Below are positions 5,372-50,308 of a stretch of DNA of 64,000 nt, piece after piece. Position 1 is the stretch's first letter, and every line of letters starts with the position of its first letter. The position numbers and the translations under genes are program-made. Below the pieces are notes generated by a model that was given only the letters and a program-made list of their open reading frames with translations, ran no database searches and was not told where the DNA came from. Source of the stretch: Natronorubrum halophilum (GTDB taxonomy: Archaea > Halobacteriota > Halobacteria > Halobacteriales > Natrialbaceae); the NCBI RefSeq assembly GCF_003670115.1, contig NZ_QQTY01000002.1, forward strand, positions 558,001 through 622,000, in the 5' to 3' direction.

Positions 5372-6823
5372 ATGTCCTCCGGTGAGTTGACGGACGAGGG
5401 GACCCTCACGGAGGGACCGCTCGTCCGACCGATGTTCAGGCTGGCCTGGCCGCTCGTGGTCATCCAGTTGTTGCAGGTCGCCTACAACGTCGGTGACACC
5501 TTTTGGCTCGGTGCGCTCTCGCCCGACGCCGTCGGTGCGGTGAGCCTCGCTTTTCCGCTCCTCTTCCTCGTGATCGCGGTCGGCGGCGGTTTCACGACGG
5601 CCGGCGCGATCTTGATCGCCCAGCACACGGGCGCTGAAAGCGGCGAGGGCGGTCTGATCGCCGGCCAAACGATCTCGTTCGTTTCGCTGGTCGCGATCGG
5701 TCTCGGTATCGTGGGCTATGTTGCGACCGATCCGATGCTCGCCGTGTTACCCGCCGATCCCGACACGCAGGCCGCGATCATCCCGCTCGCCGCCGACTAC
5801 CTGAAGATTTTCTTCCTCGGGGTTCCCTTCGTGTTCGGCTTTTTCGTCTTCGCCGCGCTCATGCGGGGCTACGGCAACACCCGCGCGCCGATGCGGGTGA
5901 TGATCATCAGCGTCGTGATCAACCTCGTGGTCGACCCGCTGCTCATCTTCGGCGTCGGTCCGCTGCCCCACCTCGGAATCGCGGGCGCTGCCGTCGCGAC
6001 CGTCTTCTCGAGAGGGATCGCGACGGCGGTCGGGTTCTATCTGCTGTACTACACGGACGTCGGTCCCGACATCCGGACGGAGCATCTAGTCCCGCGCTTC
6101 GAGTACGTTTCCAGGATCACCCGACTCGGCGTGCCCACGGCGCTCGAGCAGTCGATGACGGCGATGGCGTTGGTCGCGATGACGGCGATGGTCGTCACCT
6201 TCCCCCCGGCGGTCGTAGCGGCCTACGGGCTGGGTAACCGGCTGATTTCGCTCGCGTTCCTGCCGGCGATGGGAATGGGACAGGCGACGGACTCGATCAT
6301 CGGCCAGAACCTCGGCGCTGGCAGACCGGACCGGGCGGCGAAAGCCACGTGGATCGGCGCGGGCGTCGTCGCCGGGATCATGGCCGTCGCCGGCGCACTC
6401 GCCCTCCTCTTTCCGGAACCGTTCGTCTCGGTGTTCGTCACGGCGGACGAGGTGGGTCGAGCCGAGACGATCGAGTACGGGGTGACGTATCTCCGTTTCG
6501 CCGCGTTCGCGTTCGTCTTCATGGGCGTCATGCAGGTGATTCAGGGGGCGTTCCGGGGCGCCGGGAACACGAAGACCGCGCTCGTGTTCGCCGTCCTGGG
6601 GCTGTGGCTGGTTCGCGTGCCCGTCACCTACTACCTGATCTTCGTCGCCGGGTGGGGGACGACGGGGATCTGGACGGGCGTCGTTCTCGGCGACATCGTC
6701 GGCGCAGTCGCCGCCGTCGCCTGGTTCTCCCGCGGGACGTGGAAGGAGTCGCTGCTCGACGACGACGAGGAACCGGACGCGGAACCGGTCGACTCGAGCG
6801 AGACGGAAACCCTCGCGGAGTGA
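5372..6823 (+). CDS. MATE family multidrug/cation efflux transporter
   Basis: This 483-residue integral membrane protein has the MATE pattern of about 12 hydrophobic helices in two related halves. The N-terminal half opens with MFRLAWPLVVIQLLQVAYN and the family motif GDTFWLGALSPDAVGAVS. The second half repeats the pattern around PTALEQSMTAMAL and contains GAFRGAGNTKTAL. MATE proteins export cationic drugs or metabolites using Na+ or H+ gradients; the substrate cannot be told here. The C-terminal tail is acidic and cytoplasmic. The ATG at 5372 follows an AT-rich stretch (about 5330-5350) likely to be the promoter. It is monocistronic. Confidence 0.95.
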   Translation: MSSGELTDEGTLTEGPLVRPMFRLAWPLVVIQLLQVAYNVGDTFWLGALSPDAVGAVSLAFPLLFLVIAVGGGFTTAGAILIAQHTGAESGEGGLIAGQTISFVSLVAIGLGIVGYVATDPMLAVLPADPDTQAAIIPLAADYLKIFFLGVPFVFGFFVFAALMRGYGNTRAPMRVMIISVVINLVVDPLLIFGVGPLPHLGIAGAAVATVFSRGIATAVGFYLLYYTDVGPDIRTEHLVPRFEYVSRITRLGVPTALEQSMTAMALVAMTAMVVTFPPAVVAAYGLGNRLISLAFLPAMGMGQATDSIIGQNLGAGRPDRAAKATWIGAGVVAGIMAVAGALALLFPEPFVSVFVTADEVGRAETIEYGVTYLRFAAFAFVFMGVMQVIQGAFRGAGNTKTALVFAVLGLWLVRVPVTYYLIFVAGWGTTGIWTGVVLGDIVGAVAAVAWFSRGTWKESLLDDDEEPDAEPVDSSETETLAE

Positions 6824-7578: not shown

Positions 7579-8267
7579 ACCAGTTTCCACTCGCCGGGTC
7601 CGGCCGACTCGAGTACCGCGCGTCGCTCCATCTCGTTCAACACTTCTGGAACCCGGTCCGGCTGGGCGATTTCCATCTCGATGCGTTCGATGCCGTGGAA
7701 TTCGGCGAGATAGTGGCGGATCTCCTCCTGCGTGAACGTCCCCTGGTCGGCTTGGTCCATGACGCTCGAGATGAGATCGACCATGTCCTCGATGAAGTTC
7801 CACGGGTAGACGATCCACGTCCACTCCTCGAGGCGTTCGCCGACGTAGTCCGGCTGGTAGTCGCTGGTTCCGAGCAGTTGCAACGTCGCGGTGCGAACCT
7901 CGCCGGCGTCGCGGTCGGTGACGTACTCGTGGGCCCGCTCGATGGAGCCGCCGGTGTCGGCGATGTCGTCGATGATGAGCACGTCTTTCCCCTCGACGCT
8001 GCCCTCCGGCATCGGGTAGCGGACGGAGGGCTCGCCGCTCTTTTCGGCGGTTCCGACGTAGTGTTCCATCTTCAGGCTCGTCAGATCGTCCAGGCCGAGG
8101 AAGTCACAGAGACACCGGCCCGCGAACCAGCCCCCGCGGGCGAGGGCGACGACGACATCGGGTTCGAACGAGTCGCCTCGAACCTCGTCGCGGACGTCGC
8201 GACAGAGGCCGTAAATATACTCCCACGTGGTGATCGTACAGTCAAAATCGTCCGGTAGATCGGACAT
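7569..8267 (-). CDS. Phosphoribosyltransferase family protein (purine PRTase-like)
   Basis: This 232-residue protein has the type I phosphoribosyltransferase PRPP loop VLIIDDIADTGGS at about residues 96-108, plus ALARGGWFAG near 41-50 for the substrate pocket. It probably converts a purine base and PRPP to the nucleotide in salvage, but the base is not determinable. The C-terminal ~80 residues (from about 150) extend beyond the minimal PRTase domain and may form a helical or winged domain. It is transcribed divergently from the uppP homologue, with a 16-bp palindrome in the shared promoter. A TAC-loop mini-hairpin (7564-7578) overlaps its stop codon. Confidence 0.9.
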   Translation of the reverse strand: MSDLPDDFDCTITTWEYIYGLCRDVRDEVRGDSFEPDVVVALARGGWFAGRCLCDFLGLDDLTSLKMEHYVGTAEKSGEPSVRYPMPEGSVEGKDVLIIDDIADTGGSIERAHEYVTDRDAGEVRTATLQLLGTSDYQPDYVGERLEEWTWIVYPWNFIEDMVDLISSVMDQADQGTFTQEEIRHYLAEFHGIERIEMEIAQPDRVPEVLNEMERRAVLESAGPGEWKLVDA

Positions 8268-8381
8268 CTATTGCACCTACTCGAGGGAGGGAGCGCGGCC
8301 CTCATAAGTCGGCTGGAACCGGGCTGTGCTCACTCCGCGTGAAGCACCCACAACATGACCGTTCGTGGCAGTACACGATAA

Positions 8382-8397
8382 CGGACGATATCGTCCG
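8382..8397. promoter_or_regulatory. 16-bp perfect palindrome in divergent promoter region
   Basis: CGGACGATATCGTCCG is a perfect palindrome in the 205-bp space between the divergent phosphoribosyltransferase and uppP genes. A further half-site, TATCGTCC, follows at 8401-8408. This is the usual form of an operator for a dimeric regulator. The regulator is unknown, and no regulator gene is adjacent. Confidence 0.5.
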
Positions 8398-8472
8398 CTC
8401 TATCGTCCCACAGGCGTCTATGAGAACGTTTAATCCGTTGTCCTGTACAGTGTGCGTACACCGTTGGTGTCG

Positions 8473-9294
8473 ATGAAAGAGTACCTCATTGCGGTCATCG
8501 CCGGTATCGTGCAGGGAATCGTCGAATGGTTGCCGGTCTCGAGCCAGGGGAACGTGGCCCTCGTTCTGACGGGTCTCGGTACCAGCCCCGACGTAGCGTT
8601 GCAACTCGCGCTGTTCTTTCAGGTCGGTACGACGCTCTCCGCGGCGACGTACTATCGAGATGATATCGTCACCGCACTTCGGGCGCTGCCGAAGTGGCAC
8701 CCCGACGCCGCCTACAACGGGGACAGTGCGGTGACGTCCTATCTCGTCGTCGCGTGCCTGATGACCGGCCTCGTCGGGATACCCCTGTACGTGGTCGCGG
8801 TCGATCTCGCGGGACGGGTTTCCGGCGGCGTGTTCGTCGCCGGTATCGGCGTCCTGTTGGTACTCACCGGACTCGTGCAACTCGCCCCGAAATCGGGCTC
8901 GGCGGGGATGCGCGAGGACCCGACGCTGATCGATTCCGTGCTCGTCGGGGCCGTTCAGGGTATCGCGATCCTTCCCGGCGTGTCTCGATCCGGCGTCACG
9001 ACGAGTGCGTTGCTGTTTCGAAGCTACGATCCGCCCGCCGCGTTTCGACTCTCGTTCTTGCTTTCGATCCCCGCGAGCCTCGGCGCTGCCGCCCTCACCG
9101 TGGCGGATGCCGGCGGGCTTCCCGGGGTTAGCCCCGGTGCCGCGCTGACGGCCCTTCTCGTCAGCGCCATCGTGGGCTATCTGACGATCGACGCCCTGAT
9201 GCGGATCGTCGACCGGATCCCCTTTTCGCTCGTCTGCTTCGGTTTGGGCGGACTCGCCATCGTCGGCGGGGGTATCGTCTCCGTGGCCGTGTGA
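8473..9294 (+). CDS. uppP: Undecaprenyl-diphosphatase homologue (UppP/BacA family)
   Basis: This 273-residue polytopic membrane protein belongs to the BacA/UppP family, which dephosphorylates polyprenyl diphosphate to recycle the lipid carrier. In archaea the carrier is presumably dolichyl or another polyprenyl phosphate. The N-terminal motif GIVQGIVEWLPVSSQG (residues ~9-24) carries the catalytic Glu and the Pro-Ser-Ser region; the second motif LPGVSRSGVT lies near 165. The usual Thr-Gly-His after PVSS is Gln-Gly-Asn here, a notable change in an active-site-proximal motif. I chose the ATG at 8473; a GTG at 8452 is an alternative. The membrane helices match the family. Confidence 0.9.
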   Translation: MKEYLIAVIAGIVQGIVEWLPVSSQGNVALVLTGLGTSPDVALQLALFFQVGTTLSAATYYRDDIVTALRALPKWHPDAAYNGDSAVTSYLVVACLMTGLVGIPLYVVAVDLAGRVSGGVFVAGIGVLLVLTGLVQLAPKSGSAGMREDPTLIDSVLVGAVQGIAILPGVSRSGVTTSALLFRSYDPPAAFRLSFLLSIPASLGAAALTVADAGGLPGVSPGAALTALLVSAIVGYLTIDALMRIVDRIPFSLVCFGLGGLAIVGGGIVSVAV

Positions 9295-9440
9295 CGGGTT
9301 CGGACGACGGCGACCGCAGATCCACCGCGTTGTCCGCTTGCGTCGTCTTCCCAGAACGAGAGTCCCCCTCGTCGATCAGGGTATCCGACTCCGTCTCGAG
9401 GTCGGGCAACTGCGAACGTCCCCATCGGAACCGAGAGACA

Positions 9441-9470
9441 GGTTTATAACCCGATGGTATAACCTAGTTA
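9441..9470 (+). promoter_or_regulatory. thiC promoter with direct TATAACC repeat
   Basis: A TTTATAA box at 9443-9449 lies 25-31 nt before the thiC ATG at 9474, which implies a leaderless transcript. The heptamer TATAACC occurs at 9445-9451 and again at 9458-9464, 13 bp apart, each preceded by GG. The second copy lies between the TATA box and the predicted transcription start, a position suited to repression. No TPP riboswitch would fit in so short a leader. Confidence 0.5.
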
Positions 9471-9473
9471 TTG

Positions 9474-10988
9474 ATGGCGAAGACGCAGATAGCAGCCGCC
9501 CGAGACGGAACGGTCACCGCGGAGATGGAACGCGTCGCCGACCGCGAGAACCGCGATCCGGAGTTCGTCCGAACGCAGATCGCGGAGGGGCGGGCCGTGA
9601 TCCCGGCGAACACGAACCACGAGGTGCTCGATCCGATGATCATCGGCCGCGAGTTCGCGACGAAGGTCAACGCGAACATCGGCAACAGCGAGACGACGAG
9701 CGACCTTGAGGAAGAACTCGAGAAACTCCACACGGCGGTCCACTACGGCGCGGACACGGTGATGGATCTCGGCACCGGAAGCGATCTAGACGAGATCCGC
9801 GAGACCCACGTCGAGCATTCGCCGATACCGATCGGAACCGTGCCGCTGTACGAGCTCGTGAAACGGGCGGGGAGCCCCGAGGAGATTACGACGGACCTCC
9901 TCCTCGAGGTCGTCGAAAAACAGGCCGAGCAGGGCGTCGACTACATGACGATCCACGCCGGGATTCTGGCGGAGCACCTGCCGCTGACCGACGGCCGAAA
10001 GACGGGAATCGTCTCGCGCGGCGGCTCGATCGTGGCGAAGTGGATGGAGGCGAACGGCGAGCAGAATCCGCTGTTTCAGGTGTACGACGAACTCTGTGAG
10101 ATCTTCGCCGAGCACGACGTCACGTTCAGCCTCGGCGATAGCCTCCGCCCGGGCTGTCTGGCCGACGCCTGCGACGAGGCCCAGTACGCCGAACTCGACA
10201 CGCTCGGCGAGCTAACTCGCCGCGCCTGGGCACGCGACGTGCAGGTGATGGTCGAAGGGCCGGGCCACGTTCCGATGCACAAGGTCGCCGAGAACGTCGA
10301 ACGCCAGCAGGAGGTCTGTGATGGCGCGCCGTTTTACGTCCTCGGCCCGCTCGTGACCGACGTCGCGCCGGGCTACGACCATATCACGAGCGCGATCGGA
10401 GCCGCGATGGCGGCGCAGGCTGGCGCGGCGATGCTGTGTTACGTCACGCCCAAAGAACACCTCGGGCTTCCCGACGAGGACGACGTCCGCGACGGACTCG
10501 CCGCCTACCGGATCGCCGCCCACGCCGGCGATGTCGGGAACGAACGCCCCGGTGCACGCGACTGGGACGACGCCCTTTCGGAGGCCCGCTACGCGTTCGA
10601 CTGGCGCGAGCAGTTCGATCTCGCGCTCGACCCCGACCGCGCTCGCGACTATCACGATCAAACCCTCCCCGAGGATAACTACAAGGAAGCGCGTTTCTGC
10701 TCGATGTGCGGCGTCGAGTTCTGTTCGATGCGGATCGATCAGGATGCGAGGGAGGACGGGGAGATGAACCGTCTCGAGACGACGACGGACCTCGAGGCCT
10801 CCCCGGCAGCGGCGGTGAACCGTCCGCCCGTCGGAACGCACGAGTCGGGTACCCGCCGCCCGCTCGAGGACGACGAGCGAGCGGTCGAACGACCGGGCGA
10901 CGACTGGCCGAATCGGTTTCGTTCGACCGCGGACGCTCCGAGCAGACTGACCGTGTTCGTGAATCCCGAATCGCGGACCGAGGATTGA
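9474..10988 (+). CDS. thiC: Phosphomethylpyrimidine synthase ThiC
   Basis: ThiC converts aminoimidazole ribotide to HMP phosphate, the pyrimidine branch of thiamine synthesis, by radical SAM chemistry. The C-terminal [4Fe-4S] motif CSMCGVEFC (C-x2-C-x4-C) is present at about residues 408-416. The body contains typical stretches such as [14 protein letters not shown] and [12 protein letters not shown]. The 504-residue length includes a tail of about 85 residues beyond the cluster motif that is acidic and low-complexity. The ATG at 9474 is favoured over TTG 9471 by spacing to the TATA box. No other thiamine gene is adjacent. Confidence 0.97.
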
Positions 10989-23589: not shown

Positions 23590-24048
23590 TTAGTCGTCCG
23601 TCTCGAGACTCCCCTGAAACGCCGCGACCGCCTCGCGAAATTCCTCGGGCACGGCGATCGGCTCCTCGGTCTCGAGGTCGACGGCGACCTGCGTGACGCT
23701 GCCGTCGGCGAGCAGGCGGCCGTCAGCGCTCCGTTTCACGCGGTACTCGAACGCGATACTTGCCGTCCCCATCTCGGCGACGCGCAGTTCGTTGACGAGC
23801 ACGTCGCCGAACTCGGCCGCGTCGCGGTAGTTTAGTTCTGCGTTGACGACGTGGACCTGCCAGCCGTCGGCCGCCATCCGCTCGTAGCTGTAGTCGATCT
23901 CTCGGAAGAACTGGGAGACGGTCTCGTCCTGAAAGGTGAAGTACTCGCCGTAGAAGACGATTCCCTGCTGGTCGGTTTCGGCGAATCTGACGCGGTTCTC
24001 GAAGACGGGCTGAAACTCGGGATCGGTCTGACCGTCGGCGCTACCCAT
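23590..24048 (-). CDS. Acyl-CoA thioesterase (4HBT hotdog family)
   Basis: This 152-residue single hotdog-fold thioesterase has the 4-hydroxybenzoyl-CoA thioesterase signature FAETDQQGIVFYGEYFTF, with the catalytic Asp at residue 26. Such enzymes hydrolyse short- or medium-chain or aromatic acyl-CoAs in the cytoplasm. The length is standard. It runs convergently to the liv operon. The substrate is not predictable. Confidence 0.92.
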   Translation of the reverse strand: MGSADGQTDPEFQPVFENRVRFAETDQQGIVFYGEYFTFQDETVSQFFREIDYSYERMAADGWQVHVVNAELNYRDAAEFGDVLVNELRVAEMGTASIAFEYRVKRSADGRLLADGSVTQVAVDLETEEPIAVPEEFREAVAAFQGSLETDD

Positions 24049-43010: not shown

Positions 43011-44186
43011 TTAGTCTTGTGCGCGAGAGTCGATCGGATCGCGCCGGGTCCGCCGGCCGTCTTCGGCCGGGGGAGCGGGACGAGCCGCCTCGAGGACGGC
43101 AGCCGGTTCGAACGGTGCGTCGGTCCACCGCGGCAGGCGACGGTCGGGTCCGGGCGGCGCGATAGCGGCGGCGTAGCGAGCGAGTTGGTCGCGCTCGCTC
43201 GCCGAGTCGTACGCGAGGCCGTTGAACGCCGCGTCGGCCCGGTACTGATCGATGAGTCGGGCACCGGTCGCGCGATACCGGTCCTGAAGGGTTTCGTAGT
43301 CCGGTTCGACGCCGCCGTCCTCGACGACCCGCAGCAGCTCCGCGGCCACCTGGCGGCTCATCCCCTCGAGCCCGGTTTCGCCCGCCACCGCGCGGTGGTC
43401 GTGTTCGTGGCGACCGAGGTCGACCTGGGCGGAGCCCGCAAAGCCCGCGACGTCGAAGGCGTCGCCCAGGGTCCCGACCTCGAGCCCCCAGGCGCGAGGG
43501 GCGCGAAGCCGTCGGGCGAGCGAGGCGGTAGCGGCGAACTCCCCGGCCAGCGCGTACCGGAACGCGCCGAGGTAGTCGAGAACGGGCGCGTCGTGACGAG
43601 TCGCGAGCGTCCGGACGAGGGGGGCGTAGAACAGCCGAAAGAGCCGGCCGTAGAGCCGGTCGTCTTCGATGCGGGCGTAGTACCCCTTCGAGAAATCGAA
43701 CCGCATCGTGAGTGGGGCGAGGAGTCGGTGAACGTGCTCGGCCTCGTAGCTCTTCGCGTCGGCGTCGTGAACGACGACGTACTCGCCGGTCTCGGCGGCG
43801 GGACCGAGCGCGAGCCAGACGTCCCGGCCCTTGCCGAAGCCGTTCGCCAGTCCGGCGTCCGCGAGGAGGTCCGTGACGGCGGGCGCGTTACACCAGAGGA
43901 CGCGAATCGGCAGGGCGAACGACTCGAGCCACTCCCGAAACGGCTCGATCCGATCGGCGTCGGCGCGAACGGGGACGATGACTGCAGCGGGTTCGCGCGT
44001 CAGACCCTCGAGTTCCGAGAGCACGCGCTCGGCGGCGGGGCTCTCGTGTTCGCGGCCGGCCATCGGAACGACGACGGCAGTCTCGGCGACCGCGTCGGCT
44101 GCGTCGCAAGCGAGGCTGTCGCCCGACGCTCCGGCCGTCCCGCCGAACTCGTGGAGCGTGGCGATTCGCTCCTGTACGTACTCCAT
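43011..44186 (-). CDS. GT2-like glycosyltransferase (glucosylglycerate-synthase-like)
   Basis: This 391-residue GT-A-fold protein has AVVVPMAGREHESPAAERVLSEL (in part), WLALGPAAETGEYVVVHDADAKSY with a DAD metal-binding motif, and FSKGYYARIEDDRLYGRLFRL. The KGYYAR element and the metal triad resemble glucosyl-3-phosphoglycerate synthases, enzymes of compatible-solute synthesis. The acceptor is therefore a plausible but unproven guess. The start ATG is at 44186. It is followed by the conserved gene at 42505 on the same strand. Confidence 0.82.
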   Translation of the reverse strand: MEYVQERIATLHEFGGTAGASGDSLACDAADAVAETAVVVPMAGREHESPAAERVLSELEGLTREPAAVIVPVRADADRIEPFREWLESFALPIRVLWCNAPAVTDLLADAGLANGFGKGRDVWLALGPAAETGEYVVVHDADAKSYEAEHVHRLLAPLTMRFDFSKGYYARIEDDRLYGRLFRLFYAPLVRTLATRHDAPVLDYLGAFRYALAGEFAATASLARRLRAPRAWGLEVGTLGDAFDVAGFAGSAQVDLGRHEHDHRAVAGETGLEGMSRQVAAELLRVVEDGGVEPDYETLQDRYRATGARLIDQYRADAAFNGLAYDSASERDQLARYAAAIAPPGPDRRLPRWTDAPFEPAAVLEAARPAPPAEDGRRTRRDPIDSRAQD

Positions 44187-45640: not shown

Positions 45641-45811
45641 ATGAGATCCGTCCGGAAGGCGCTCCGCGAGGGCGAACTCGAGAAAGACACCTACGATCGA
45701 CTCGTCTGTGGCGAGTGTGAAAAGCCCCTGAAGACCGAAAACGACCCGGATCAGATCAAGACCGTCCGCATCTGTCCGGACTGCGACGCGGAGTGGAAAG
45801 AGATCCGATAG
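45641..45811 (+). CDS. HVO_0758-type zinc finger microprotein
   Basis: This 56-residue protein has CGEC at the middle and CPDC at the end (RLVCGECEKPLK and RICPDCDAEWKEIR), forming one four-Cys zinc finger. The N-terminus MRSVRKALREGELEKDTYD matches the haloarchaeal HVO_0758 zinc-finger family. ATG 45641 gives the expected length. Microproteins of this type are widespread in haloarchaea; the partner is unknown. Confidence 0.88.
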   Translation: MRSVRKALREGELEKDTYDRLVCGECEKPLKTENDPDQIKTVRICPDCDAEWKEIR

Positions 45812-45853: not shown

Positions 45854-46408
45854 CTACCCGGGCGTCGGTCGAACCCGCTCGAGCGCTGCGCGAAGCGCCG
45901 CGAGACCGGGATACCCGTGCTGACGCCAGAGGGTGAACGCGATAGCGGCGAGGACGAATTCCAGAAGGAAGTACGGGTCGGTCGCCGAGTCCCGTAAGAG
46001 CCCGAGAACGGTCGGCGGTCCCTGTTCGTACTCCTCGACCGGAATCGCCGGCCAGAGGAGGTGGTTCGCGTCCGCTTCGGGCCGCCAGATGACGGGCAGG
46101 GCGTCGACGACGACGTGCGAGAACGCGCCGATCGCGAAGGCGATGCCGTACTCTCTACGATCGTAGTGACTTGCGAGCGCGTACGCCGCGATCGAGAGCG
46201 GTACCAACAAGAACAGCGAGTGTGCGAGCGTCCGCCCCGTCGGGATCACGCGCAGATACCACGCTAACGGCTTATCTACGAGGTCGGGGAACTGACTCCC
46301 GAGTACGAGGATTAGCGCCGGAACGTGCGCCGGCGGGGCGTCGAACCGGGCTCGAGTCGCGAGGGTGTAACAGAGGTACGCGACGGCGACGTGTCCCAGT
46401 GGCCACAT
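45854..46408 (-). CDS. DUF457-like membrane-bound metal-dependent hydrolase
   Basis: This 184-residue membrane protein has the family landmarks: an N-terminal LGHVAVAYL, LGSQFPDLVDKPLAWYL with acidic residues for metal, GRTLAHSLF and FSHVVVDALP. The His and Asp pairs within helices match the YdjM/DUF457 group, often annotated as inner-membrane hydrolases. The start is the ATG at 46408. A paralogue follows upstream at 46485, and together they seem part of a four-gene membrane block. Confidence 0.85.
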   Translation of the reverse strand: MWPLGHVAVAYLCYTLATRARFDAPPAHVPALILVLGSQFPDLVDKPLAWYLRVIPTGRTLAHSLFLLVPLSIAAYALASHYDRREYGIAFAIGAFSHVVVDALPVIWRPEADANHLLWPAIPVEEYEQGPPTVLGLLRDSATDPYFLLEFVLAAIAFTLWRQHGYPGLAALRAALERVRPTPG

Positions 46409-46484
46409 GTACGTCGGGCTGATGTGAGGGCGGAATATAACTGGCGCGGTTGGGAGTCGCGGGGGGTCGAAGACGGTATCGCGG

Positions 46485-47003
46485 TCACTCGATCTTCGAC
46501 GCTCCCGTTCCAGTCGGGTCGTCTCGGTACCGAGCGATCGTCCAGACGAGCGCCGCACAGAGGCCGGCGACGGCCGCCGGCCAACGGTCGCTGCTCAGGA
46601 AGAGCCCGCCCGCGGGCAGCCGGTACTCCGTGAGCGGCCAGAAGACGGCGTACGCCTCCCCCGTCGGCGTCATGAGAAGCACGTCGAGGACGTGGTGTGA
46701 CAGGGCACCGATCGCGAACAGCGCGATCGCTTGCGTCCGGTACTCGGGGGCGAGCAGGAGCGAGCAGAGGCCGACGACGAGCACGGAGCCGACGAGCGTG
46801 TGCAACGGCGACCACGAGAACGGTACGCCGAGCAGCGCCGCCACGAGGCCGTCCGGGACGAACAGATCGATTTTGGCGAAATCCGGCGAGAGCGCGCCGA
46901 TCATCGCGAGCGTGACGCGGGCCGAGCGCAGTCGCTCGTATCGAAGCGAGAGGAGCATGCCGATGACGTAGCCGACGAGCACGTGCGTGAGCACGTCAGG
47001 CAC
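46485..47003 (-). CDS. DUF457-like membrane-bound metal-dependent hydrolase (paralogue)
   Basis: This 172-residue membrane protein has MPDVLTHVLVGYVIGMLLSLRY, GALSPDFAKIDLFVPD, SPLHTLVGSVLV and GALSHHVLDVLLM, the same arrangement of metal-like His and Asp residues as the neighbouring gene. It is shorter, and its N-terminus is more typical of DUF457. The overlap with the OB-fold gene (8 bp) suggests co-transcription. The presence of two divergent paralogues side by side is notable. Confidence 0.85.
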   Translation of the reverse strand: MPDVLTHVLVGYVIGMLLSLRYERLRSARVTLAMIGALSPDFAKIDLFVPDGLVAALLGVPFSWSPLHTLVGSVLVVGLCSLLLAPEYRTQAIALFAIGALSHHVLDVLLMTPTGEAYAVFWPLTEYRLPAGGLFLSSDRWPAAVAGLCAALVWTIARYRDDPTGTGASKIE

Positions 47004-47613
47004 GGCGATCCCCTCCGTCCGTCCGGGCTCGTTGGTTCTGTCGGGTTCGTGCCTGCTGACTCCGGCCCGACCGGTCCGATCCCTGTCGTCTCGAGGACTG
47101 GTCGGCGGTTTTCGACGACCGTTCCCGCGGGATGAACGCGAGCGTCGCTCGATCGAAGCGCCAGCCGCGGATGAATCGACCGGCGACCCAGAGCCCGGCG
47201 ATCGCCGAGACGGCGAGCATGTAGCCCGTCTCGGACGATTTTCGGGTCGTCGTCCGCTCGACGACGAGCGTCGAGTCGGCCTCGAGCGTGCCGAAGGCGG
47301 TCACGCGGTCGCCCCGCTCCAGCGGCCCGTCGGCGTTCTGGAGTCGATCGTCCGCGTTTACGAGCGTGAATCGGCCGTATCCGCTGGCGCGCGTCGCGAT
47401 CACCACGGGGTCGGTGTCGACGACCCGCCCGCCGAGGACGACCTGCTCGCCGACGTATGCCTCGGGCGTCGGCGTCACTTCGACCTCGTCCGGATACGCG
47501 CTCTCAAGCGGATCGCCGGGCGTCGCGCCCGCCCAGAGCAGACAGCCGCCCAGAAGCGCGCCGAGAACCACGCCGGCGAGGAGACGACCGCGTTGTCCAG
47601 CGAAAAACTGCAT
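46996..47613 (-). CDS. Membrane-anchored OB-fold-like protein
   Basis: This 205-residue protein begins with a membrane segment LLAGVVLGALLGGCLLWAG. It then has an OB-like beta region: AYVGEQVVLGGRVVDTDPVV, GYGRFTLVNADD and DRVTAFGTLEADSTLVVER. A second hydrophobic segment (GYMLAVSAIAGLWVAGRFI) lies near 145, and the C-terminal tail is basic and Gln/Arg-rich. This suggests a soluble domain between two helices, with a cytoplasmic nucleic-acid-like tail, but the function is unknown. Start ATG 47613; it overlaps the next gene by 8 bp. Confidence 0.75.
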   Translation of the reverse strand: MQFFAGQRGRLLAGVVLGALLGGCLLWAGATPGDPLESAYPDEVEVTPTPEAYVGEQVVLGGRVVDTDPVVIATRASGYGRFTLVNADDRLQNADGPLERGDRVTAFGTLEADSTLVVERTTTRKSSETGYMLAVSAIAGLWVAGRFIRGWRFDRATLAFIPRERSSKTADQSSRRQGSDRSGRSQQARTRQNQRARTDGGDRRA

Positions 47614-47737
47614 GTGTGTCGCTCGAGGGGAAGGGCTACCCGGAGGAAAGGTCTTCTGTTCTCGTTCGGGTCGGCCCGGAGTGAGGCGGAACGACGAACC
47701 TTCGTGGACACGCGTTGGTGCGTCGTTCAACGCGTAT

Positions 47738-48574
47738 CTACGAATTCGAGGCCCGCGTCCCGCTCTCACCGTTCGGCGGTGGACCGACGACCCGTCTGAG
47801 CGGCGGGTAACAGAGGCCGAAGACGAACCCGAAGACGAGCAGCCCGATCAGGCTCTGCCAGTGCAGGTACGGGAAGGGACGTGAGGAATCGAAGACGACC
47901 CGCATCCACAGCGGGAGTGCGATCGCGATACCGAAGAGCCACCCGAAGATGGCGATCAACAGCCCGACGGACAGCCCCGCCGCCGGATCGGTCGCTCGCA
48001 TCGTCGAGTTCGCGGCCGCGATAATTCCGTCGATACCCATTCCGGTGAGGACGCTCCACGCGAGCAGTAGTGCGATCCCGGCTCGGGCGCTCTCGCGGCC
48101 GTAGAGCGAAGCGACCGACTCGAGTCGGCCGGTCGCGTACACCCCGGTACCGACGACCGCGCCGGCGAGGAGCGCGGCCACGGCGATGCAGACGACGGTC
48201 GCTACTACCCGCGCGAACCGCGACGCGAGACCGTTCTCTCGAGGGACTCCCGCGACCGTAACGACGGCCGTCGCGACCAGAAAGGCGAGTATCGACGCGA
48301 AGACGGTCTCGAGGTACAGATCGGCGAGCGGTGGCTGATCGAGGGTGTAGTGAACGGCGAACAGGTCGGCCCACGACGAATCGTGGACGATCCGAAGCTG
48401 ACCTCGAAAAACGGGAGCAATGTTGTAAAGGTCCGGCGCAAGGCCCCACAGGCCGCCGATACTGACGATCCAGAGTCGCCCGCGGCGGACGAGACCGGAC
48501 CGAAGCGCGAACGGCGCTGCGAGGACAAGGAGGAGGGATGCGCCGACGAGGAAGTGGACGATAGCTGGTGCCAT
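47738..48574 (-). CDS. Polytopic membrane protein of unknown function
   Basis: This 278-residue protein has about seven hydrophobic segments, beginning MAPAIVHFLVGASLLLVLAA and ending GLLVFGFVFGLCYPPLRRVV. The segment LWGLAPDLYN together with HDSSWADLFAVHYTLD recalls a DUF457-like metal region, so it could be a distant member of the same family. The gene lies at the head of the block on this strand, 124 bp before the OB-fold gene. No substrate or partner is known. Confidence 0.75.
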   Translation of the reverse strand: MAPAIVHFLVGASLLLVLAAPFALRSGLVRRGRLWIVSIGGLWGLAPDLYNIAPVFRGQLRIVHDSSWADLFAVHYTLDQPPLADLYLETVFASILAFLVATAVVTVAGVPRENGLASRFARVVATVVCIAVAALLAGAVVGTGVYATGRLESVASLYGRESARAGIALLLAWSVLTGMGIDGIIAAANSTMRATDPAAGLSVGLLIAIFGWLFGIAIALPLWMRVVFDSSRPFPYLHWQSLIGLLVFGFVFGLCYPPLRRVVGPPPNGESGTRASNS

Positions 48575-48892: not shown

Positions 48893-50074
48893 TTATCGAT
48901 CCCGCTCGACGGTCTCACCGGGTCGCGTGGTCGCGCCGGTATCGAGTTTTAACCCGGGAGAGAGGCTCGAGTTGATGCCCGTTTTGGCCCCGTCGCCGGC
49001 GACCACGCCGAACTTGCGCCGGCCCGTCGAGACGCGCTCGCCTTTCACGGTGAACTCGATGTCCGCGTCGTCGTGGCGGAGGTTCGCGACGTTCGTCCCC
49101 GCGCCGAAGTTGACGTCCCGGCCGAGAACGCTGTCGCCGACGTAGGAGAGGTGGCTGACCGACGTGCCTCGAGAGAGCACGCTGTTTTTCACCTCCGCGG
49201 CGTGGCCGATCTTCGCGCCGGACTCGACCAGCGTCGCACCGCGGACGTAGGCGTTCGGCCCGATCGTCGCGCCCGAACGGATCAGCGCCGGCCCCTCGAT
49301 GACGACGCCCGGTTTCACCGTCGCGCCGTCCTCGACGACGATATCGCCCTCGAGCGTCGCGTCCTCGCTCACGTCGCCGTCGATCCGTCGCTCGAGGTTG
49401 CCGATCTTCCACTCGTTGGCTTCGAGCAACTCCCACGGGCGGCCGACGTCCAGCCAGCGCTCGAGCGTCACGGGGGTGACGTCGAACTCGTCGATCACGG
49501 TCGCCACCACGTCGGTGATCTCGTGTTCACCGCGGTCGCTCTCGGGGACCTCGAGCCACTCGCGTGCCTCTGCGGGGAAGGCGTAGGCACCGGCGTTCGC
49601 GAGGTTCGTCGGCGGATCGTCAGGCTTCTCGACGATACCGGTGACCGAGCCGGCGTCGGTACTGAGAACGCCGTAGTTACGCGGGTCGTCGACCTCGATC
49701 GCGCAGACGGCCGGACACTGATCGAAGAGTCGAGCGACCGCCGCCGGGTCGTACAGGTTGTCGCCGTTCAGCACGGCAAAGGGTCCCTCGATGTGGTCTC
49801 GAGCGGTGTTGACGGCGTCCGCCGTGCCGGCCTGTTCGGTCTGGACCGCGTAGGAGACGGGGACGCCGCGGTACTCCGAACCGAAGTACTCGCCGACGGT
49901 TTCGGCCTCGTATCCCACGACGAGGACGATCTCGTCCGCTCCGGCGTCGATCGCCGCGTCGATCGTGTGAGCGACGAGCGGCCGATCGGCGACCGGTAAC
50001 ATCGGCTTCGGGACCGAATCGGAGAGTGGTCGAATACGCGTGCCCTGCCCCGCCGCAAGAACGACTGCTTTCAT
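48893..50074 (-). CDS. Sugar nucleotidyltransferase with left-handed beta-helix (GlmU-like)
   Basis: This 393-residue bifunctional-type protein has an N-terminal nucleotidyltransferase, AVVLAAGQGTRIRPLSDSVPKP, with the catalytic Lys region. LNGDNLYDPA and GIVEKPDDPP complete the active site. The C-terminal half is a hexapeptide-repeat left-handed beta-helix (EDATLEGDIVVEDGATVKPG, GATIGPNAYVRG). It ends TGINSSLSPG, as in archaeal GlmU/Sugar-1-P nucleotidyltransferase-acetyltransferases. It may make UDP-GlcNAc or dTDP/UDP-glucose. ATG 50074 is chosen; 50092 is in frame. Confidence 0.92.
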   Translation of the reverse strand: MKAVVLAAGQGTRIRPLSDSVPKPMLPVADRPLVAHTIDAAIDAGADEIVLVVGYEAETVGEYFGSEYRGVPVSYAVQTEQAGTADAVNTARDHIEGPFAVLNGDNLYDPAAVARLFDQCPAVCAIEVDDPRNYGVLSTDAGSVTGIVEKPDDPPTNLANAGAYAFPAEAREWLEVPESDRGEHEITDVVATVIDEFDVTPVTLERWLDVGRPWELLEANEWKIGNLERRIDGDVSEDATLEGDIVVEDGATVKPGVVIEGPALIRSGATIGPNAYVRGATLVESGAKIGHAAEVKNSVLSRGTSVSHLSYVGDSVLGRDVNFGAGTNVANLRHDDADIEFTVKGERVSTGRRKFGVVAGDGAKTGINSSLSPGLKLDTGATTRPGETVERDR

Positions 50075-50308
50075 GTACTCGGTGTCTTCCATGAACGGTC
50101 GGATAAGCGATTCGCTCGCCGGTCGATTTCGTGTGAATCGGGGGCATTCCGGAACGCGATCACGGTCGTCGTCGGCCGCGGCCGAACTGACCGTTCGTCC
50201 CGTCCGTCGGTCGGGAGTACGAGATCGCGGCCGAATCGGTGCCTGTGACGGATGCGATCCGTCCTCGCGGAAGCGGCTCACGGCGTGTTCCCGATCGGAG
50301 AAAACGAC

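Follow-up and report, generated by a model that had tools for sequence, protein, structure and literature searches.

The Locus and Its Genes

The window analyzed here, a 64,000-nucleotide stretch of the Natronorubrum halophilum genome (4.67 Mb in 8 contigs), holds four consecutive membrane-protein genes on one strand, flanked by genes for a GlmU-type enzyme, a zinc-finger micro-protein and a glucosyl-3-phosphoglycerate synthase-like protein (Table 1). The last of these scores below the equivalog cut-off of its model, so that its product may differ in exact function from glucosyl-3-phosphoglycerate synthase. A codon-usage gene caller returned the same limits for three of the four genes, placing the start of P0002 at 46994 instead; the limits of the GlmU-type gene are likewise from this caller, its profile scan having begun at 50281.

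Table 1. Features of the locus, with positions counted from the first letter of the window.
Feature	Position	Strand	Details
P0004, polytopic two-domain fusion	47738–48574	−	278 aa
P0003, OB gene, first of the conserved pair	46996–47613	−	205 aa, ATG; listed ORF start 47769 is longer
8-bp coding overlap P0003/P0002, GTGCCTGA	46996–47003	−	
P0002, DUF457/YdjM, second of the pair	46485–47003	−	172 aa, GTG; PF04307 50.6 bits
P0001, separate DUF457/YdjM gene, MWPLGH type	45854–46408	−	184 aa, ATG; listed start 46558 is longer; PF04307 53.2 bits
HVO_0758 family zinc-finger micro-protein, beside the four genes	45641–45811	+	109 bits, cut-off 70
Archaeal GlmU-type sugar-1-phosphate nucleotidylyltransferase/acetyltransferase, neighbor	48893–50092	−	TIGR03992 526.9 bits
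Glucosyl-3-phosphoglycerate synthase-like protein, neighbor near glmU	43011–44186	−	NF040724 213 bits, equivalog cut-off 700

An earlier note on this DNA had read the four genes as a single membrane block containing two DUF457 paralogs. The second part of that reading is borne out: both P0001 and P0002 score above the curated PF04307 cut-off of 29 bits, the two being distant paralogs (BLASTP E 6e-5 over 39 residues) with the same ligand order, H..PD..H..HxxxD, as read from their sequences. DUF457/YdjM proteins make up a common family of membrane proteins whose function has yet to be settled, and searches with this family also match control genomes, e.g., those of E. coli, B. subtilis and Haloferax volcanii. 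Since the host genome itself has 13 PF04307 matches, 12 of them above the cut-off, the proximity of two such genes is unremarkable.

A Conserved Gene Pair

The conserved unit at this locus is the inner pair, a probable two-gene operon in which the gene for a predicted OB-fold membrane protein is followed by one for a DUF457 protein. Across 146 genomes of the host's order, P0003 (E ≤ 1e-3) has matches in 45, and these are exactly the 45 matched by P0002 (E ≤ 1e-8), so that neither occurs alone. A P0002 match lies directly downstream and on the same strand for 55 of the 58 P0003 matches in these genomes, the three exceptions all being weak. By coordinates, seven of the 62 P0002 matches are unpaired; both of those that were inspected (L127 and L131) do have a divergent P0003 relative. 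Scanning genome contigs with a single pattern based on the P0002 alignment turned up 68 named loci, 65 of which have the OB gene directly upstream, and all 40 further loci chosen by P0002 and held out from the first analysis are paired. The held-out loci were hand-picked from the listed matches with few-contig assemblies favored, and at least two come from species already among the named loci. Of 392 genomes of the host's order, 169 have a match to the P0002 profile at E ≤ 1e-25.

The three unpaired named loci (L185, L188 and L190) are all from Halonotius. At about 8000–9500 in each of them there is a paired-type DUF457 gene with no recognized OB gene upstream and, in that place, a regulator-like ORF that by eye is of the HTH type.

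The coupling extends to the junction itself. The 8-bp overlap that had been pointed out between the genes at 46996–47613 and 46485–47003 is real and is the commonest junction of all, found in 45 of the 65 named pairs (12 have a 1-bp overlap), with 44 of the 45 fitting [AG]TG[GC]CTGA; no RNA structure was detected at the P0003/P0002 junction of the window (z 0.45). Further, the distance matrices of the P0003 and P0002 families correlate with r 0.85, uncorrected for species relatedness, the highest value from 500 permutations being 0.12. For the DUF457 residue counts given below we used a 109-row set, from which the three Halonotius loci, L127, L132, L134 and L219 had been dropped for an absent or doubtful partner or short length, followed by five near-duplicates among the remaining 114.

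We could find no name for the OB–DUF457 pair and no named system that fits the combination, in agreement with the earlier note; it is an unusual core in an otherwise ordinary juxtaposition of genes. No description of the pair turned up in the titles and abstract openings covered by an open-access literature search, nor did the open-access papers searched, in the parts so covered, yield an OB partner for DUF457. One lead retrieved with the term DUF457 (PMC12642688) was discarded, as its retrieved passages concern DUF4579, a prefix match of the name. In five annotated plasmid regions, the first gene of the pair is labeled 'hypothetical protein', whereas the label of the second is 'metal-dependent hydrolase' in four regions and 'alpha/beta hydrolase' in the fifth; 'metal-dependent hydrolase' is an annotation name only, and the activity of P0002 is one that we infer.

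Duplicated arrangements were seen as well. L265 has one OB–DUF457 pair at 190–1189 and another, some 5 kb on in the same genome, at 5478–6504; contig G420:C8, scanned for DUF457 alone, has two matches, near 23660 and 28349.

The Outer Genes

The outer two genes behave differently from the inner pair. Relatives of P0001 occur in 116 of the 146 genomes (E 1e-8), usually away from the pair; they lie within about 1 kb of it in six of 165 loci (L139, L140, L142, L144, L150 and L284), all from Natronorubrum/Natronolimnohabitans or the window's own genus. P0004 relatives, mostly partial, are found 2–9 kb from the pair in seven of the 165 loci (L112, L183, L196, L198, L199, L280 and L294) and adjoin it in none. 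The genes of Natronorubrum bangense run glmU, OB gene, DUF457, second DUF457 and the HVO_0758 zinc-finger gene, with no counterpart of the gene at 47738; L140 and L142 agree with this order, and glmU is syntenic with the pair in Natronorubrum.

Hence, the proposal that all four genes constitute one functional system is highly improbable. Their common strand and close spacing in the window speak for it, as does the presence of DUF457 or DUF457-like sites in three of the four products. Against this, the six loci with P0001 nearby belong to one clade, relatives of both outer genes occur elsewhere in other genomes, and we reject the proposal because co-occurrence fails for these two genes. The gene-neighborhood survey that the earlier note had named as a check therefore upholds the inner pair and dissolves the block of four; P0001 and P0004 are local neighbors of the pair rather than parts of one system.

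P0004 is a fusion of an N-domain (about 1–112) and a C-domain (about 113–278), each half of which also occurs as a separate small protein in other haloarchaea. It has matches in 53 of the 146 genomes, near full length in five including that of the window and mostly confined to one half in the rest. The stand-alone relatives of the C-domain are weakly DUF6789/DUF1440-like. The N-domain displays the ligand order H7-D48-H64-H75xxxD79, which is that of DUF457 with shorter spacing; in its family H7, G11, D48, H75 and D79 are invariant and H64 nearly so. The HMM comparison that had been suggested for this gene gave an hhalign probability of 81.6% against the P0002 family (single-comparison E 1.1e-5), the alignment spanning 65 columns and taking in both H7 and the PD motif. 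P0004 itself has no PF04307 match in Pfam, and three of the four stand-alone N-domain relatives scanned match that family below the cut-off (E 0.023–0.11). Judged from its sequence, the N-domain is a distant, shortened DUF457 relative, in line with the possible distant site that had been suspected there.

Distribution Beyond the Host's Order

When 294 genomes from across the phylum were searched, 47 had a match to the OB profile, and 26 of the 47 lie outside the host's order. From 15 of these 26 we inspected 17 stretches, the other 11 genomes having weak matches. Twelve of the 13 loci outside the order are paired, one of the 12 pairs (L219) being fragmentary; L215, at a contig edge, has a partial P0002 match. 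L220–L223 are weak OB matches without the pair, among which L220 is a CcmE protein (53 bits against a cut-off of 24.6) and L222 has no Pfam match. The pair is also present in five named MAGs placed in Thermoplasmatota (L180, L184, L187, L192 and L194), where binning errors are possible. In the tree, the nearest named relatives of P0002 are from Natronorubrum; the outgroups OUT_L001, OUT_L006 and OUT_L008 are probably in the wrong reading frame, and no claim is based on them.

Haloarchaeal plasmids carry the pair too, with P0002 matched on nine records (one weakly) and P0003 on seven. The phage collection yielded no match to P0002, and the three stretches of viral contigs that fit one peptide pattern include no P0002 relative. 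Likewise, the PADLOC models returned no family for P0001–P0004 at E 0.1. On these grounds an anti-phage defense system was rejected.

The OB-Fold Protein

P0003 consists of a transmembrane (TM) helix (7–30), a set of barrel strands (57–124), a second TM helix (126–150) and a C-terminal WRFD...PR motif. Its AlphaFold2 model has a mean pLDDT of 79.4, with ten-residue means of 85–96 over residues 41–120, and the five-stranded barrel matches solved OB domains with Z-scores of 8.6–10.2 among the best 50 matches listed. The model thus supports the presence of an OB fold, as the earlier note had anticipated in calling the protein membrane-anchored and OB-like. Across 36 members, R10, G62, G108, S136 and W151 are invariant. 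The family has no name, P0003 having a sub-threshold match only in Pfam. Weak matches to the OB region came from Slp lipoprotein (PF03843), DUF5666, DUF5818 and DUF4131 in 5, 12, 16 and 11 of the 36 members, respectively, but with best E-values of only 0.00018 to 0.005. A reading of P0003 as an Slp lipoprotein was rejected on its score (13.3 against a cut-off of 22.5 bits) and on the lipobox Cys, which is present in two of 39 members.

The known protein that calls for comparison is CcmE (PF03100), a membrane-anchored OB-fold chaperone of cytochrome c maturation that has a single anchor, at its N-terminus, and binds haem through a conserved His or Cys. It raises the alternative that the OB protein is dedicated to maturing the DUF457 enzyme or loading it with metal, taking no part in catalysis. 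Both proteins belong to the same architectural class, the best two solved-sequence matches of the OB profile are CcmE (8ce8, E 0.037; 1sr3, E 0.066), CcmE (8ce8_E) is the seventh Foldseek match of the P0003 model, and strict pairing would suit such a role. Unlike CcmE, however, P0003 has two TM helices and no histidine, and its sole cysteine, in the first TM helix, occupies a column that is Cys in two of 39 members, leaving it without the haem-binding residue. In the reverse direction, the CcmE profile matched two of the 36 family members without reaching its cut-off (best E 0.19) and did not match P0003 itself, the structural neighbors of which include many general OB folds. We regard the maturation-factor role as decidedly unlikely.

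The DUF457 Partner

P0002 has five putative metal ligands, H7, D41, H68, H103 and D107. In the 109-member set both aspartates are invariant, and H7, H103 and H68 are kept in 106, 98 and 87 members, respectively; the complete H-D-H-H-D set is present in 86, and the P0002 of the window is intact. S137 (94/109) and D139 (96/109) are also well kept, these counts being from the paired subfamily alone. The AlphaFold2 model is helical with a mean pLDDT of 92.9, and has no convincing match among solved folds (Foldseek best E 0.28; VIA best Z 4.5). Zinc-dependent phospholipase C (PF00882) gives weak profile matches to P0001 (E 0.012, 16.0 bits) and P0002 (E 0.29, 11.5 bits), short of its cut-off of 26.8 bits; it is not among the Foldseek/VIA-align matches listed for P0002, an absence that excludes nothing.

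Mean loop charges over the 109 members favor the outer face for the OB domain (17.0 acidic to 5.5 basic) and for the ligand-bearing helix ends of P0002, which, by the positive-inside rule, suggests that both are extracytoplasmic. What sets the paired subfamily apart from DUF457/YdjM at large is its obligate OB partner. Unlike a solitary orphan, a subfamily with such a genetically coupled partner presents a defined candidate complex of two proteins for purification and mutagenesis.

Gene Neighborhood and Proposed Function

Genes within 5 kb of the pair were compared with control loci hand-picked on the same contigs, 0.1–0.6 Mb away, using a six-frame ORF scan for ten glycan families with the same queries and threshold in both arms. 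In the 40 held-out loci, NTP-transferases (NDP-sugar transferase genes) were found near 10 pairs and no control (p 0.0005), UDP-sugar dehydrogenases near seven and none (p 0.006), and any of the ten families near 21 and six (p 0.0004); ABC exporters (3/40 vs. 3/40) and epimerases (3/40 vs. 2/40) scarcely differ, and 19 of the 40 have none of the ten families within 5 kb. In the first set, which was the source of most queries, the figures for any family are 21/35 against 4/35.

A version based on gene calls is weaker in the held-out loci (NTP-transferase 7/40 vs. 0; UDP-sugar dehydrogenase 5/40 vs. 0; any family 15/40 vs. 7/40, p 0.039) and gives 21/35 against 5/35 in the first set, from whose loci most queries had been picked. 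The gene caller finds few genes in low-GC loci and none in seven of the 12 loci outside the host's order; in the six-frame scan, five of these 12 loci have a glycan match, a figure with no control arm. In Pfam scans of 173 genes near 35 pairs (34 of which gave genes), NTP-transferase is listed in 11; the 35 control loci (33 of which gave genes) supplied 186 genes, and it is absent among the top 25 families listed for each half of these, where a count of one could hide. We take the neighborhoods to reflect a real link, in roughly half of the loci, with genes for nucleotide sugars and surface glycans.

Based on the above, we propose the following. The DUF457 protein would be an integral-membrane metallohydrolase with its five ligands at the extracytoplasmic ends of the helices. 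The OB protein, held by its two-helix anchor, would place the OB domain on the same outer face as these ligands and act as an obligate partner, either binding the substrate or holding the enzyme in place. Of this model, the pairing, the overlap and the ligand conservation are observed and the OB fold is predicted; the topology, from the positive-inside rule, the physical complex and the hydrolase activity are parts that we infer, and a role in cell-surface glycan metabolism is probable from the gene neighborhood; the most likely substrates would be lipid-linked or surface glycan intermediates. Taken as a whole, this model of an outward-facing membrane metallohydrolase with an OB partner, encoded by a two-gene operon and acting on glycans, seems to us about evenly balanced between right and wrong. 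If the glycan link is true, the pair would be an added component of archaeal cell-surface glycan metabolism.

Lipid-Carrier Genes and Members with Altered Ligands

A set of lipid-carrier genes (UppP, PAP2, AglB-like and sugar transferase) was found near 8 of 35 pairs against none of 35 controls in the first set, and near 2 of 40 against none of 40 in the held-out loci, a link that we read as confined to some lineages. At least one ligand is changed in 23 of the 109 members, and 11 members retain one histidine of the three or none, with the partner still present. With the window left out, ligands are altered in all 11 pairs that have an AglB-like gene within 5 kb (L119, L124, L126, L131, L135, L136, L196, L197, L198, L199 and L202), as against 12 of the 97 others. 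A reading of the enzyme as a lipid-carrier phosphatase was rejected, the lipid-carrier genes being nearly absent from the held-out loci and the AglB-adjacent members all ligand-altered; it is a weak lead only.

These altered members, with their retained partners and their association with AglB-like genes, are what would be expected if the pair were a non-enzymatic membrane complex, acting as scaffold or sensor, whose DUF457 ligands have become partly vestigial. On the other hand, most members keep the entire HDHHD set, both aspartates never vary, and 18 of the 23 altered members sit on one 22-row branch (support 86/95), so that the association with AglB does not represent many independent events. 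We consider a scaffold or sensor somewhat unlikely. The metallohydrolase model can be taken further, to a two-subunit, outward-facing archaeal enzyme for lipid-linked or surface glycans with the OB protein as the substrate-binding subunit, and with one branch, having lost the catalytic histidines, recruited next to an AglB-like oligosaccharyltransferase as a pseudo-enzyme partner; in this specific form it would be unlikely. The altered-ligand branch beside the AglB-like genes would provide a natural test between enzyme and scaffold.

Finally, L151, L154, L156 and L157 (from Natronococcus and a Natrialbaceae MAG) have a further gene upstream of the OB gene, ending 6 bp short of it. In L151 it codes for a PAP2-type phosphatase by Pfam, and the genes from the other three loci cluster with it.
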